This document shows, piece by piece, positions 46,903-53,889 of a stretch of DNA of 64,000 bases. This DNA comes from Stigmatella ashevillena. GTDB taxonomy: Bacteria; Myxococcota; Myxococcia; Myxococcales; Myxococcaceae. The translations under genes and the position numbers were made by a program. Within the stretch, counting starts at the first letter, position 1. Each line of letters begins with the position of its first letter. The notes under the pieces were generated by a model, which was given only the letters and a program-made list of their open reading frames with translations, searched no databases and was not told the origin of the DNA. The stretch covers positions 6,008,425 to 6,072,424 of the forward strand of contig NZ_JAQNDM010000002.1 in assembly GCF_028368975.1 (NCBI RefSeq), in the 5' to 3' direction.

Positions 46903-46955
46903 ATAGATTGCCCGCCGCCTGCCTCCTTTAGATGGATTTCTATAAAGGAGGGAAT

Positions 46956-47570
46956 ATGCAGAACAAACTGTCTTCTGTGTGGGGAAGGGCCCTGTTGCAG
47001 TCTACCCTTGTGTGGGCAATGGCTTGTGGAGGGCAACCTCCGTTGCCCGAGGAAGAGGGACTCGAAATCACCGCTGCTGTTGAACCCACCCAGGAGAGCT
47101 TTGAATCTGAAGACAGTTTCTCCGAAGACCCGTCTCAACAACTCGCGGATGCGTGTTCCGGCGCAACAGGAACTGGAACCTACAAGGGGTACATGTGTCC
47201 CTCGCATTTGTTCATTACCACGAAGAGCATTTCTTGCGCGGCAGCACGCAGCAATTGCATCCTCAATGCCAACTCGAATCCAGGAACGAGTTTCTTCTGC
47301 ACCTGGAATGATCGTGTCATTTACCGCAAGGATGTGACCGCGGGTGCGTGCAATCCCCTGGTTTGTTCGGCCGTGACGGGTAAGGGGCAGTACAAAGGCT
47401 ACATCTGCCCCTCTCACAATTTCATCACGACCGAGCAGATTTCCTGTCAGGACGCACAATCTAACTGCGCGCTCAACTCCAACGCGAATCCCTCTTCGAG
47501 TTTCTACTGCACGTGGAAAGGGACGGAGATTTATCGCCGCGAGACGGTTGCCGGCATCTGCGGTCCGTGA
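46956..47570 (+). CDS. Lipoprotein with two Cys-rich repeats
   Basis: A 204-residue lipoprotein. ATG 46956 is preceded by AAAGGAGGGAAT; an earlier ATG at 46932 lacks this. The signal ends in VWAMAC (lipid Cys). An acidic linker (ESFESEDSFSEDPS) leads to two ~68-residue repeats, each with six Cys: TYKGYMCPSHLFITTKSISC to CTW...IYR...AGAC, and QYKGYICPSHNFITTEQISC to CTW...IYR...AGIC. The even Cys count suggests three disulfides per repeat outside the inner membrane. I do not recognise this domain. The gene is single, next to a strong palindrome upstream and a hairpin downstream. Confidence 0.72.
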   Translation: MQNKLSSVWGRALLQSTLVWAMACGGQPPLPEEEGLEITAAVEPTQESFESEDSFSEDPSQQLADACSGATGTGTYKGYMCPSHLFITTKSISCAAARSNCILNANSNPGTSFFCTWNDRVIYRKDVTAGACNPLVCSAVTGKGQYKGYICPSHNFITTEQISCQDAQSNCALNSNANPSSSFYCTWKGTEIYRRETVAGICGP

Positions 47571-50706: not shown

Positions 50707-51618
50707 TCAGCCAACTCGCGAGCTTGGCGGAGGCGTCGGCTCTATCTCCACCGCATCCGGGGTCCAGGGTGTGTTGGGTCGAGGCGCAACGAAGGCCTCG
50801 AACGAGACGGCCACCCCCGGCTCCACCGTGGAGTGCCCATACCACCACCCCACAGGCAGTAGGAGCATGTCCCCCGGTGTCACCTCCACTTCCAGCCGGA
50901 GCACGGCGTCCGCGTCCTCCGTGTCCCGAGTCATGCGGCGAAGCTCGAAGGCGGGAATGAGCTGGAGCCGCCGCCGCCCCTGCACCTGGCACAGCAGCCC
51001 ATTGGCGCGAGCAGGCCGCCGGGGTTGCAGCGCCCCCGCTTCTTCCACCCAGAGCCGGGGCATGGACGCATGGACATCCGCGACGACGTACGCGGCCGGA
51101 GGGCGCAGCGAGGCCGCCAGCGTCCGCAGCGACGCGTGCTCCAGCAGGGGCACGCAGGCGGTCCGAGGCTCCGTCCCCTCCGCGAGCCACAGCCGGTCCT
51201 CGATGAGGCGGGCGGTCAGCGACTCCGGAGCCCAGGAGGTGGCCTCCGCACCGTCCACCACGGCACCGCGCACCACCACGGGCCTGTTGAGGAAGTAGTA
51301 CCGCGAGAAGAAGTCTTCTGCGGGGAGCGCCTCGTGGCGGTCCACCGTCGCATGGCCTTCGCGCTGCCGGTACAGGTCGCCATAGAGGTCGAACAGCCCC
51401 TCCAGTTTGCGCTGGTACGCGAGCGCCTTCGCGGCGCCCAGGAAGGTGGGGTCCGCCGCCTCGGCGCGCACGGCCGCGAGCGCCCGCTCCGAGTCGACGC
51501 CAGAGGCCCTCAACACAGCCAACAGATCCTCCTCCTCCGTGCCGCGCAGCAGGTTCTCCACCAGCCACCGCCGCCACTCCGGCGCGAGCAGTCCCTCCCC
51601 ACCGTCACCCTCCGTCAT
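50707..51618 (-). CDS. JmjC/cupin-like paralogue with lost iron ligands (pseudo-hydroxylase)
   Basis: A 303-residue member of the three-gene JmjC-like cluster. ATG 51618 overlaps the previous stop (TGATG). The N-terminal EWRRWLVENLLRG helix is shared with the other two copies, as are the FFSRYYFLNRPVVVRG and LLCQVQGRRRLQLIPAFE blocks of the cupin core. The HxD motif present in the other copies (LHHD) is here RRPA: position for position His becomes Arg and Asp becomes Ala. The distal His of GWWH is Tyr (GWWYGHS). It should therefore not bind Fe(II) as an oxygenase. A binding, scaffold or partner role for the active copies is a reasonable inference. The Pro-rich tail is EPTPPPSSRVG. Confidence 0.8.
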   Translation of the reverse strand: MTEGDGGEGLLAPEWRRWLVENLLRGTEEEDLLAVLRASGVDSERALAAVRAEAADPTFLGAAKALAYQRKLEGLFDLYGDLYRQREGHATVDRHEALPAEDFFSRYYFLNRPVVVRGAVVDGAEATSWAPESLTARLIEDRLWLAEGTEPRTACVPLLEHASLRTLAASLRPPAAYVVADVHASMPRLWVEEAGALQPRRPARANGLLCQVQGRRRLQLIPAFELRRMTRDTEDADAVLRLEVEVTPGDMLLLPVGWWYGHSTVEPGVAVSFEAFVAPRPNTPWTPDAVEIEPTPPPSSRVG

Positions 51619-52661
51619 CACCTCATCCCTTCCGGCCGGTGGCCGATCCAGTAGTTCCGCCACTGCGTGGTGCGCACGGGCAGATCAAAGCAGACGAACG
51701 TCACCGACAAGCTCACCTCCAGCGCCTGGACGGCGTGCCACCAGCCCACAGGGATGAGGAGCGCGTCGCCGGGCCCCACTTCGCACGAGTGCAGCGCCGC
51801 GCGCTGGAAGTCGGGGAAGCGGCCCAGGTCCGGCGCGAGGATGTCCACCGCGCTGTACAGCCCCCGGTCGTTGTAGAGCCACGGCAGCTCCCATGAGGGA
51901 GCGAGCCAGAACCGCTTGCGTCCGAACACCTGGCAGAAGAGGACGCTGAGGTGGTCATGGTGGAGGTTGGACAGCGTGCCCGCCGGGCCGAACCAGACAT
52001 GCACGCTGTCATCGACGTGGATGTCCGGCTGCACGTAGCCCGCTGGCGCCCGCAGGTCGTCGAGCAGCGGGCGGAAGGCATCACGCTTCAACAGGCTGTT
52101 GCGCGCCACCAGGTAGACGTCGTTCGTGGGGCCCGCCCGCATCTGGGCGACGAACTCGCGCAGCGGCAGGGAGCGCCGCCGGAGTTCGGCGTTGAAGTCC
52201 GGATCCGCATCCGCCTCGCGGCCCGCCATGACCTCCACGGGCTCCCCGCCAAAGTGCTCCGCCAGCCACTCCGGCGACCATTTCGACAGCGCGGGCCAGT
52301 CCGCCAGCAGCCCCTCGACGATGACCGGCTCGTTGCGGAGGTAATACCGCTCGAAGAACGCGTCGGGGGACAGGTTCCGGCATCGCTCCACCGCGAGGCC
52401 CCCGCGCCCCTCCGCCCCCTGGCGGTAGAGGGAGGCGCGGGCTCCCAGCAGCGACTCCCAGTCCCGGCGCGCGTGCGTCTCCGAGCGCACGTGCCGGACC
52501 GCGGGGTGCAGGGCTGCTGCCTCCACCTCCGAGCGAGCCTCGGCCGGTGTCAGTCCCGCCTCGCACAAGGGGGACACGAGGCGTTCCGGCGACACGCCCC
52601 TCGACAGGTTCTCGGCGATCCAGGCTCGCCACTGGGTGCGAGCGCTTGAGTCAGGCGTCAT
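51618..52661 (-). CDS. JmjC/cupin-like Fe(II)/2-oxoglutarate hydroxylase
   Basis: A 347-residue likely oxygenase. ATG 52661 is the first in the conserved part; the frame upstream is only a shadow of the neighbouring gene. The N-terminal helix WRAWIAENLSRGVSPERLV is common to all three copies. The cupin/JmjC core (res ~105-325) has FFERYYLRNEPVIVEG, then LSNLHHDHLS with His234 and Asp236, and IPVGWWHAVQ with His309, the HxD..H iron triad of the FIH-like cupin_8 group. These enzymes hydroxylate Asn, Asp, His or Arg side chains in peptides and proteins. It is coupled to the pseudo-enzyme downstream, and a 48-codon peptide ORF starts 54 bp away on the other strand. Confidence 0.86.
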   Translation of the reverse strand: MTPDSSARTQWRAWIAENLSRGVSPERLVSPLCEAGLTPAEARSEVEAAALHPAVRHVRSETHARRDWESLLGARASLYRQGAEGRGGLAVERCRNLSPDAFFERYYLRNEPVIVEGLLADWPALSKWSPEWLAEHFGGEPVEVMAGREADADPDFNAELRRRSLPLREFVAQMRAGPTNDVYLVARNSLLKRDAFRPLLDDLRAPAGYVQPDIHVDDSVHVWFGPAGTLSNLHHDHLSVLFCQVFGRKRFWLAPSWELPWLYNDRGLYSAVDILAPDLGRFPDFQRAALHSCEVGPGDALLIPVGWWHAVQALEVSLSVTFVCFDLPVRTTQWRNYWIGHRPEGMR

Positions 52662-52715
52662 GATGCGGAGTGCGATATAACCATCGGGCTGTTCCTTCAG
52701 CCTTGCAGAGGAATC

Positions 52716-52862
52716 ATGACGCGTCCTTCTTCGATGCCCAAGATTGTCCCCAACCCCTCGCCCAGCGTCGAGATCGTCCCGAATCCGAACCCGCTGTTCA
52801 GGGCCCAGCCGGAGCGTCGCATCCTGCCCACGCCGCCGCCCTCCACTCCCCCTCTGCGGTAG
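52716..52862 (+). CDS. 48-residue Pro/Asn-rich peptide ORF, candidate substrate of the hydroxylases
   Basis: A short frame with ATG 52716 after GCAGAGGAATC and stop TAG at 52860-52862. The peptide holds two near repeats, KIVPNPSPSV and EIVPNPNPLF, followed by a basic RAQPERR stretch and a Pro-rich end. Third codon positions are mostly G or C (39 of 47 by my count), as in real genes here. It lies in the 220-bp gap between two hydroxylase genes, on the opposite strand, diverging from the second. No family is recognised. Because FIH-like enzymes act on Asn in extended peptides, the tandem VPNP units are plausible targets. The ORF could also be chance; it is too short to be certain. Confidence 0.4.
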   Translation: MTRPSSMPKIVPNPSPSVEIVPNPNPLFRAQPERRILPTPPPSTPPLR

Positions 52863-52881
52863 GAAGGCCCAGGGCGGGGCT

Positions 52882-53889
52882 TCACCGCAGCTCCCACCAG
52901 GCGTTGCCTTCCGGGAGATCAAACTCCTGGAAGGTGACGGAGACGCTGACGTCGAGCGCCTCCACCCAGTGCCACCAGCCCGCCGGAATGAGCAGCAGGT
53001 CCCCCGGGCCCACCACCGTCTCCAACACGTCCGCCTCACGGTACGCGGGGAAGCGCTCCAGGTCGGGGTGCTCGGCGTCCACCTGACTCCACACATCGCG
53101 GTGGCTGTAGACGAAGTGAGTCTCGAAGGAAGGGATGAGCCGGAAGCGCTTGCGGCCATGCACCTGACCGAAGAGGACCGAGCCCAGATCATGGTGCAGC
53201 TCCGTTAAAGTGCCGGCGGGCCCCACCCAGAGCTTCACGGCGCCGGCGCGGTTCGTCTGGCGAAGCAGTCCCTTCGGATAGCGCACGTCCTCGAGGAGGG
53301 TGCGCAGCTCCGAGCGCTCGAGCGCGAAGTTGCGGGCCGTGAGATACAGGTCGTTGGTCGGGCCGCCCTCCACCAGTCGGCGGATGAACTCGCCGAAGCG
53401 CATCACTGTGCGGCACGCATCGGGGGCCAGATCATGGTCGGCGCGAGACTCGCGGCCCGTCATGACCTCCACCTCGACGTCGCCATACCGCTCGGCCAAC
53501 GCGTGCGGCGTCCACCGCGACATCAACGGCCAGTCGTCCATGACGCCTTCGAGGATGACGGGCCGGTGCGCCAGATAGTAGCCGTCCATCACCTCACGCG
53601 CTGACGCGCCCCGGATCCGCTCCAGCCGTTGGTGCGCGCCCGATTGACGGTGGAGTGCCACACGCGTGTCGAGCTGGGCGAGGAGCTCCTTGAGCAGCCC
53701 CGCCCGTGGCCGCCCCAGTGTCACCGCTGGGTGTTGGAGGCAGGTCTCCACCACGGCCCGTGCCTGCTCCGGTGCGAGGCCCGAGTGCGCCAGCGTCTGC
53801 TCCAATCGTTCCGGCGCGACACCGCGCACCAGGTTGTCCGCCAGCCAGGTTCGCCACTCCGTGCTCAAGCTGGGTGCCGCGTCCACCAT
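52882..53889 (-). CDS. JmjC/cupin-like Fe(II)/2-oxoglutarate hydroxylase
   Basis: A 335-residue likely oxygenase, first of the three paralogues. ATG 53889 follows AGGAGAGGACAC. It shares the N-terminal EWRTWLADNLVRGVAPERL helix and an EQARAVVETCLQHPAV segment with the second copy. The core has YYLAHRPVILEGVMDDWP, GTLTELHHDLGS with His232 and Asp234, and IPAGWWHWVE with His307, so the iron triad is intact. The conserved GRKRF..IPSFE strand is typical of cupin_8/JmjC hydroxylases. Sequence between shared blocks differs from the second copy, suggesting different substrates or sites. Its stop lies 20 bp from the end of the convergent peptide ORF. Confidence 0.86.
   Translation of the reverse strand: MVDAAPSLSTEWRTWLADNLVRGVAPERLEQTLAHSGLAPEQARAVVETCLQHPAVTLGRPRAGLLKELLAQLDTRVALHRQSGAHQRLERIRGASAREVMDGYYLAHRPVILEGVMDDWPLMSRWTPHALAERYGDVEVEVMTGRESRADHDLAPDACRTVMRFGEFIRRLVEGGPTNDLYLTARNFALERSELRTLLEDVRYPKGLLRQTNRAGAVKLWVGPAGTLTELHHDLGSVLFGQVHGRKRFRLIPSFETHFVYSHRDVWSQVDAEHPDLERFPAYREADVLETVVGPGDLLLIPAGWWHWVEALDVSVSVTFQEFDLPEGNAWWELR

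Follow-up and report, generated by a model that had tools for sequence, protein, structure and literature searches.

A conserved proline-rich peptide gene antisense to JMJD5-like oxygenase genes in Myxococcaceae as a candidate dedicated substrate

For the JmjC hydroxylases known so far, the substrates are mostly host proteins. JMJD5 hydroxylates arginine. For most bacterial JmjC/cupin_8 oxygenases we know of no substrate. Clusters for ribosomally synthesized and post-translationally modified peptides (RiPPs) place a small peptide gene next to tailoring enzymes, and JmjC homologues occur in RiPP-like contexts (PMC12710340). In biphenomycin-type RiPP pathways, PbsQ, BpmG and BipG are cupin-like/JmjC ornithine hydroxylases that act on gene-linked ribosomal peptides (PMC12257519, PMC12707348). 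Here we describe a four-gene unit in a 64,000-nucleotide stretch of Stigmatella ashevillena DNA (contig NZ_JAQNDM010000002.1, positions 6,008,425 to 6,072,424; hereafter the window). Three JmjC-type genes (g1, g2 and g3) lie together with a short gene on the opposite strand, and the proline-rich peptide that it encodes is probably the substrate of one or both active enzymes.

The closest described relative is JMJD5/KDM8, an arginyl C3-hydroxylase, with which g2 and g3 share a JmjC catalytic domain carrying the HxD...H triad. The unit differs from JMJD5 in its extra all-helical N-terminal domain, its tandem of two active enzymes and one dead one, and its gene-linked peptide. With PbsQ, BpmG and BipG it has in common a JmjC/cupin-like hydroxylase and a ribosomal peptide in the same cluster. 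Those clusters add a multinuclear non-heme iron-dependent oxidase, a B12-dependent radical S-adenosylmethionine enzyme, an arginase, a RiPP recognition element (RRE) protein and a TldD protease, whereas the present unit has stand-alone oxygenases and an unrelated peptide. RiPP clusters in general resemble the unit in their small peptide gene beside tailoring enzymes; the unit differs in having no conserved RRE, protease or exporter. The enzyme family and the general principle are already known; the pairing of such an enzyme with a dedicated peptide appears to be new. Our literature search found no paper on a JmjC–peptide pairing, although publications beyond the searched collection are possible. 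The peptide families have no Pfam or NCBIfam model, and PADLOC has no model for the enzymes.

All three enzyme genes lie on the minus strand. The g3 gene (52882..53889) encodes 335 aa and g2 (51618..52661) encodes 347 aa. The g1 product (50707..51618) has 303 aa with a disordered tail; it most likely starts at ATG 51618, where an ATGA overlaps the g2 stop codon, and not at GTG 51663. The original prediction had grouped these as three paralogous cupin_8/JmjC genes, and Pfam Cupin_8 matches above cutoff bear this out (E values 7.4e-44 for g3, 1.2e-42 for g2 and 1e-11 for g1). The iron triads that it named, His232/Asp234/His307 in g3 and His234/Asp236/His309 in g2, are exact in the sequence, and g1 has none. 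Both g2 and g3 retain the HxD...H triad in every locus read. To judge from these residues, g2 and g3 look active and g1 is dead.

The catalytic domains are nearest to JMJD5 by sequence (phmmer 8e-33 for g3 and 6.8e-32 for g2) and by fold, assessed for g3 (Foldseek TM score 0.84, 31% identity). FIH, JMJD7, TYW5 and JMJD6 are more distant. An FIH-like assignment, as first proposed, does not hold, because FIH is matched at 7e-18 against 8e-33 for JMJD5. Ahead of the catalytic domain, g1, g2 and g3 share an all-helical domain of ~85 residues. The RRE fold is defined as beta3-alpha3 (PMC12710340); the extra domain is all-helical in the g1 and g3 models, so the RRE test is negative, and Pfam and NCBIfam detect no RRE family. 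Many RiPP classes lack an RRE, and its absence is therefore not exclusive. A plasmid search for homologues beyond the myxobacteria returned cupin-like proteins at 25–35% identity. In the two neighbourhoods inspected, from Sinorhizobium and Eleftheria, no comparable peptide is annotated; the divergent 210-aa protein in Sinorhizobium is not Pro-rich repeat-like.

The gap of 220 bp between g3 and g2 holds the peptide open reading frame (ORF). The original prediction of a 48-codon ORF here stands (52716..52862), with the addition, left unsaid at the time, that it lies on the plus strand, so that all three enzyme genes run the other way. A spacer of 54 bp separates it from g2, to which it is head-to-head, and one of 19 bp from g3, to which it is tail-to-tail. 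Its product is MTRPSSMPKIVPNPSPSVEIVPNPNPLFRAQPERRILPTPPPSTPPLR. A ribosome-binding site, AGAGGA (52707..52712), sits three bases 5' of the ATG, and the G+C content at third codon positions is 0.83, both in line with the first description. A purine-rich site of GGAG/GGGGA type occurs at this place in many homologues. The peptide carries two IVPNP units, at residues 10–14 (52743..52757) and 20–24 (52773..52787), and ends in the motif PTPPPSTPPL at residues 38–47 (52827..52856). The two near repeats reported initially are thus both present in the window peptide; their duplication is not universal. Homologues have from 1 to 3 units, and none is without an IVP[N/D]P or VVPNP unit.

On its own, a proline-rich short ORF is no more than chance would give: among the 134 ATG ORFs of 40–70 aa in the window, 8 reach a Pro content of 25% or more. 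Conservation decides. Used as a direct query, the 48-aa peptide gave no convincing relative in 96 genomes, which reading of the gaps and a profile search revealed to be a false negative. Homologues of g3 are spread across the family Myxococcaceae. We read the gap 3' of g3 in 30 loci and found a related same-strand ORF in 29; the remaining locus is cut by a contig end. A profile of this class A peptide, built from alignment A1, matched at the g3–g2 gap in 40 of the 41 surveyed Myxococcaceae genomes that have the pair, including one split by a contig end (G027). The 41st, G006, has the peptide MTQDQKKPPAKNGGTKVVPNPIPNPQPERNEGPTRPTPTPPPKTPPLR, which falls below the profile threshold. The class A gene is therefore present in 41/41 such genomes, with no other convincing location. 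We attributed weak profile matches at other places, such as one in G142 (E=0.001), to chance similarity of low-complexity sequence. A scan of contigs yielded one true relative, in Myxococcus dinghuensis; a Dactylosporangium locus from the same scan was disregarded as a 31-residue match.

Substitutions were counted in all six frames for seven sequence groups. The annotated frame is the sole frame free of stops in every group. Its ratio of nonsynonymous to synonymous substitution rates (dN/dS) is 0.40, 0.23, 0.50, 0.30, 0.05 and 0.10 in six groups; the seventh gives 1.07 from three sequences only and is uninformative. Across homologues, 26 DNA spellings encode the IVP[N/D]P unit. Length changes are all in frame, including a duplicated IVPNP-containing unit, exact in sequence, in L011, and four Myxococcus sequences (L014, L015, L019 and L020) have lost the first unit and kept the second. 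Absence from related loci, or lack of conservation there as protein, had been set beforehand as an outcome that would count against the original proposal; instead, a homologue is found in every intact g3–g2 gap surveyed, under purifying selection. On these sequence comparisons the 48-aa ORF is a real gene, selected at the protein level. The most conserved region in alignment A1 is the PTxPPxTPPL end, and class A peptides have no invariant Arg.

The order g3, antisense peptide, g2, g1 recurs in 18 regions read outside the window (L065, L068–L077 and L080–L086). Flanking genes vary between genera while the four genes remain together. A maximum-likelihood tree built from 61 enzymes resolves g1, g2 and g3, each as its own clade with good support. 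The window g2 and g3 group with Myxococcus sequences (75% identity for g3). Among six congeners, four lack the unit (G036–G039), G040 (L089) has only g2 and g1, with a variant peptide, and G041 carries a divergent version. We infer horizontal spread of the unit, since the window genes sit with Myxococcus while most congeners lack them. The variant peptide of G040 (L089 5400-5666, minus strand), which has no g3 beside it, contains IVNPLP and TPSPATPPLE followed by a Lys/Ala-rich, histone-H1-like tail. In G053 (L090 3420-6253, minus strand) an intact cassette is accompanied by a broken second copy, with a g2 fragment 78% identical and a g1 fragment 61% identical.

Beside other JmjC genes of Myxococcaceae we found two further families of opposite-strand Pro-rich peptides. 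Class B (MTPG...VKNxYV[D/N]C...PLPxPxxPPL) precedes a single JmjC gene, and its C-terminal motif resembles the PPxxPPL-type end of class A. The class B profile (A2) gave one strong match in each of 46 genomes, located at the enzyme wherever both coordinates could be compared. In one more genome with a class B-type enzyme (G021), the contig ends at the expected peptide position. In G004 and G006, a class B relative lies instead at the 3' end of the enzyme gene, tail-to-tail. The dN/dS of class B is 0.20 in the M. xanthus-like clade and 0.68 in other Myxococcus; a third group gives 0.91 from two sequences only and is uninformative. Class C (MPRINxPLTSA..., 111–191 aa) has 7–14 PL[KTA]S units and is found in six genomes, where it lies upstream of every one of the six enzymes of a more distant JmjC clade. 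Its dN/dS is 0.26–0.54, and its Ser codons alternate between TCG and AGC. The class C profile adds two genomes, G090 (at a contig edge) and G046. On the 61-enzyme tree, enzyme clades correspond to peptide classes.

The class B genes (L078 2434-4397 and L079 2202-4183) and the G006 cassette (L067 6871-8792) adjoin a gene for an extracytoplasmic function (ECF) sigma factor followed by a zf-HC2/TPR gene. Peptide, sigma and zf-HC2 genes share one direction in both L078 and L079. The zf-HC2/TPR protein, next to an ECF sigma factor, is a probable anti-sigma factor. Outside the family, G168 and G169 (L100 and L107) carry a repetitive SPAS-type putative open frame (MGGTSPxS..VRPTS) divergent from a JmjC gene, possibly a fourth peptide class.

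Orthologues of g1 have lost the active site: HxD is missing in 19/19 examined and the distal His in 18/19, and the middle region is shortened. The g1 model (pLDDT 77) still shows a JmjC-type core, with a TM score of ~0.62 to JMJD5 by target length, and a disordered, Pro-rich tail. G006 carries an intact gene (LHQD...GWWH) at the g1 position, and this gene is sister to the whole g1 clade. By this placement g1 is the descendant of an active enzyme in which the site was lost and the gene retained. Its tail contains EPTPPP in the window and in some Myxococcus and there resembles the peptide end, which may be coincidence given such simple sequence.

We favor the reading, at a probability of about 0.58, that the peptide is the dedicated substrate of g2 and/or g3 within this four-gene unit. 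The pairing is strict across different peptide families; the short repeated units drift in number, from 1 to 3 IVP[N/D]P and from 7 to 14 PL[KTA]S, which suits a substrate modified at several sites; and PbsQ, BpmG and BipG set a precedent on gene-linked ribosomal peptides. The unit would then comprise two active JMJD5-like Fe(II)/2-oxoglutarate oxygenases, a dead paralogue and a short, probably unstructured peptide. One or both active enzymes would bind the peptide, perhaps through its PTxPPxTPPL end, and add a hydroxyl group to a side chain within the IVP[N/D]P unit or units, with Asn/Asp beta-hydroxylation as a first guess. The g1 protein may serve as a binding subunit and help to capture or retain the peptide. 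The peptide may act inside the cell, because the unit is accompanied by neither an exporter nor a protease. The hydroxylation, its target residue, the role of g1 and the action of the product are inferred. For the target residue we can only guess: in class A (IVPNP/IVPDP) and in class B (YVDC/YVNC) a conserved position is occupied by Asn in some peptides and by Asp in others, which would suit an Asn/Asp beta-hydroxylase. The exchange of Asn and Asp is, however, a common single-base change, the units of class C have an invariant Lys instead, and JMJD5 itself hydroxylates Arg. The original idea of substrate plus enzymes is thus the best reading, with the ORF conserved and two more peptide families at sister enzymes, and a non-substrate partner role is its main rival.

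Several observations count against a substrate role. The candidate residue differs by class, N/D in A and B and an invariant Lys in C, and none is common to all three. The peptide is transcribed separately from the enzymes. One clear exception to the pairing is the class C peptide of G046 (L139 5058-5654, minus strand), an orphan or displaced gene that lies beside a DEAD-box helicase gene with no adjoining JmjC gene. Beyond the three clades, certain JmjC genes (G171, G095:C225 and G049) lack a recognisable adjacent peptide. Strict pairing would also be predicted equally by a regulator or docking partner. Such a partner, whether inhibitor, activator, targeting factor or scaffold, would leave the enzymes to act on another cell protein, for example a ribosomal, nucleoid or RNA-polymerase component. 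In classes A and B conservation is highest at the PPxxPPL-type end, which resembles a docking motif, and the general preference of known JmjC hydroxylases for host proteins agrees with a partner role. So do the ECF sigma/zf-HC2 pairs beside the class B genes and the G006 cassette, and the nucleic-acid-binding-like, Lys-rich tail of the G040 variant. A regulator, however, needs neither repeated units of drifting number nor a complete change of sequence class between sister enzymes, and we regard a partner role as less likely than a substrate role.

The unit also has what marks RiPP-type loci, a short conserved peptide gene adjoining a modifying-type enzyme, and JmjC enzymes serve the biphenomycin pathway. 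The peptide could then be a precursor which, after hydroxylation and cleavage, leaves the cell as an exported natural product or signal. The enzyme reaction would be the one proposed under the dedicated-substrate reading; only what becomes of the peptide would differ. No protease or exporter is conserved with the unit, whose flanks vary between genera and were read by ORF start and synteny, not all being annotated. The lack of a conserved RRE and the helical nature of the extra domain likewise argue against a RiPP pathway, which we consider improbable. Most doubtful by far is that the ORF is no gene and merely stays open within a conserved DNA or RNA element, such as a divergent promoter, operator repeats or an antisense RNA. 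Its intergenic position on the opposite strand, its repeated motif and the conserved GTGCGATATA in the adjacent spacer would fit such an element. Yet substitutions are mainly synonymous in exactly the ORF frame, other frames contain stops, and the varied spellings and in-frame length changes point the same way, as do classes B and C, the latter with its switching Ser codons. On this substitution pattern we rejected both a chance ORF and a DNA/RNA element. A leader or attenuator peptide for the enzymes was ruled out because the ORF is antisense to them.

Tentatively, the substrate reading can be extended to a family of stand-alone protein-hydroxylation systems in myxobacteria. In these, JMJD5-type oxygenases would each evolve with their own opposite-strand Pro-rich peptide substrate, in at least three unrelated classes, and one lineage would have expanded to two active enzymes and a pseudo-oxygenase. 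If hydroxylation reports oxygen or 2-oxoglutarate, this would be a bacterial analogue of HIF–FIH signalling. For each of ~90 enzyme loci, comparative genomics now names a specific candidate peptide and predicts its site, which turns substrate assignment into an ordinary problem of co-expression and mass spectrometry. The class B pair is present in M. xanthus-like genomes, where genetics is routine. A pseudo-oxygenase kept beside two active paralogues offers a clean case for the role of dead JmjC proteins.

Two further features of the window were noted. Between g2 and the peptide gene, the head-to-head spacer of 54 bp (52662..52715, no strand assigned) contains GTGCGATATA at 52670-52679. By-eye alignment of upstream regions places it at the same position in most Myxococcus homologues (GTGCGATATACC, GTGCGTTATA) and not in Corallococcus, and it is a possible shared promoter or operator. 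Farther away, a plus-strand ORF of 212 aa (46932-47570) begins like a lipoprotein and contains two similar repeats with Cys residues (SAxTGxGxYKGYxCPSHxFITT).

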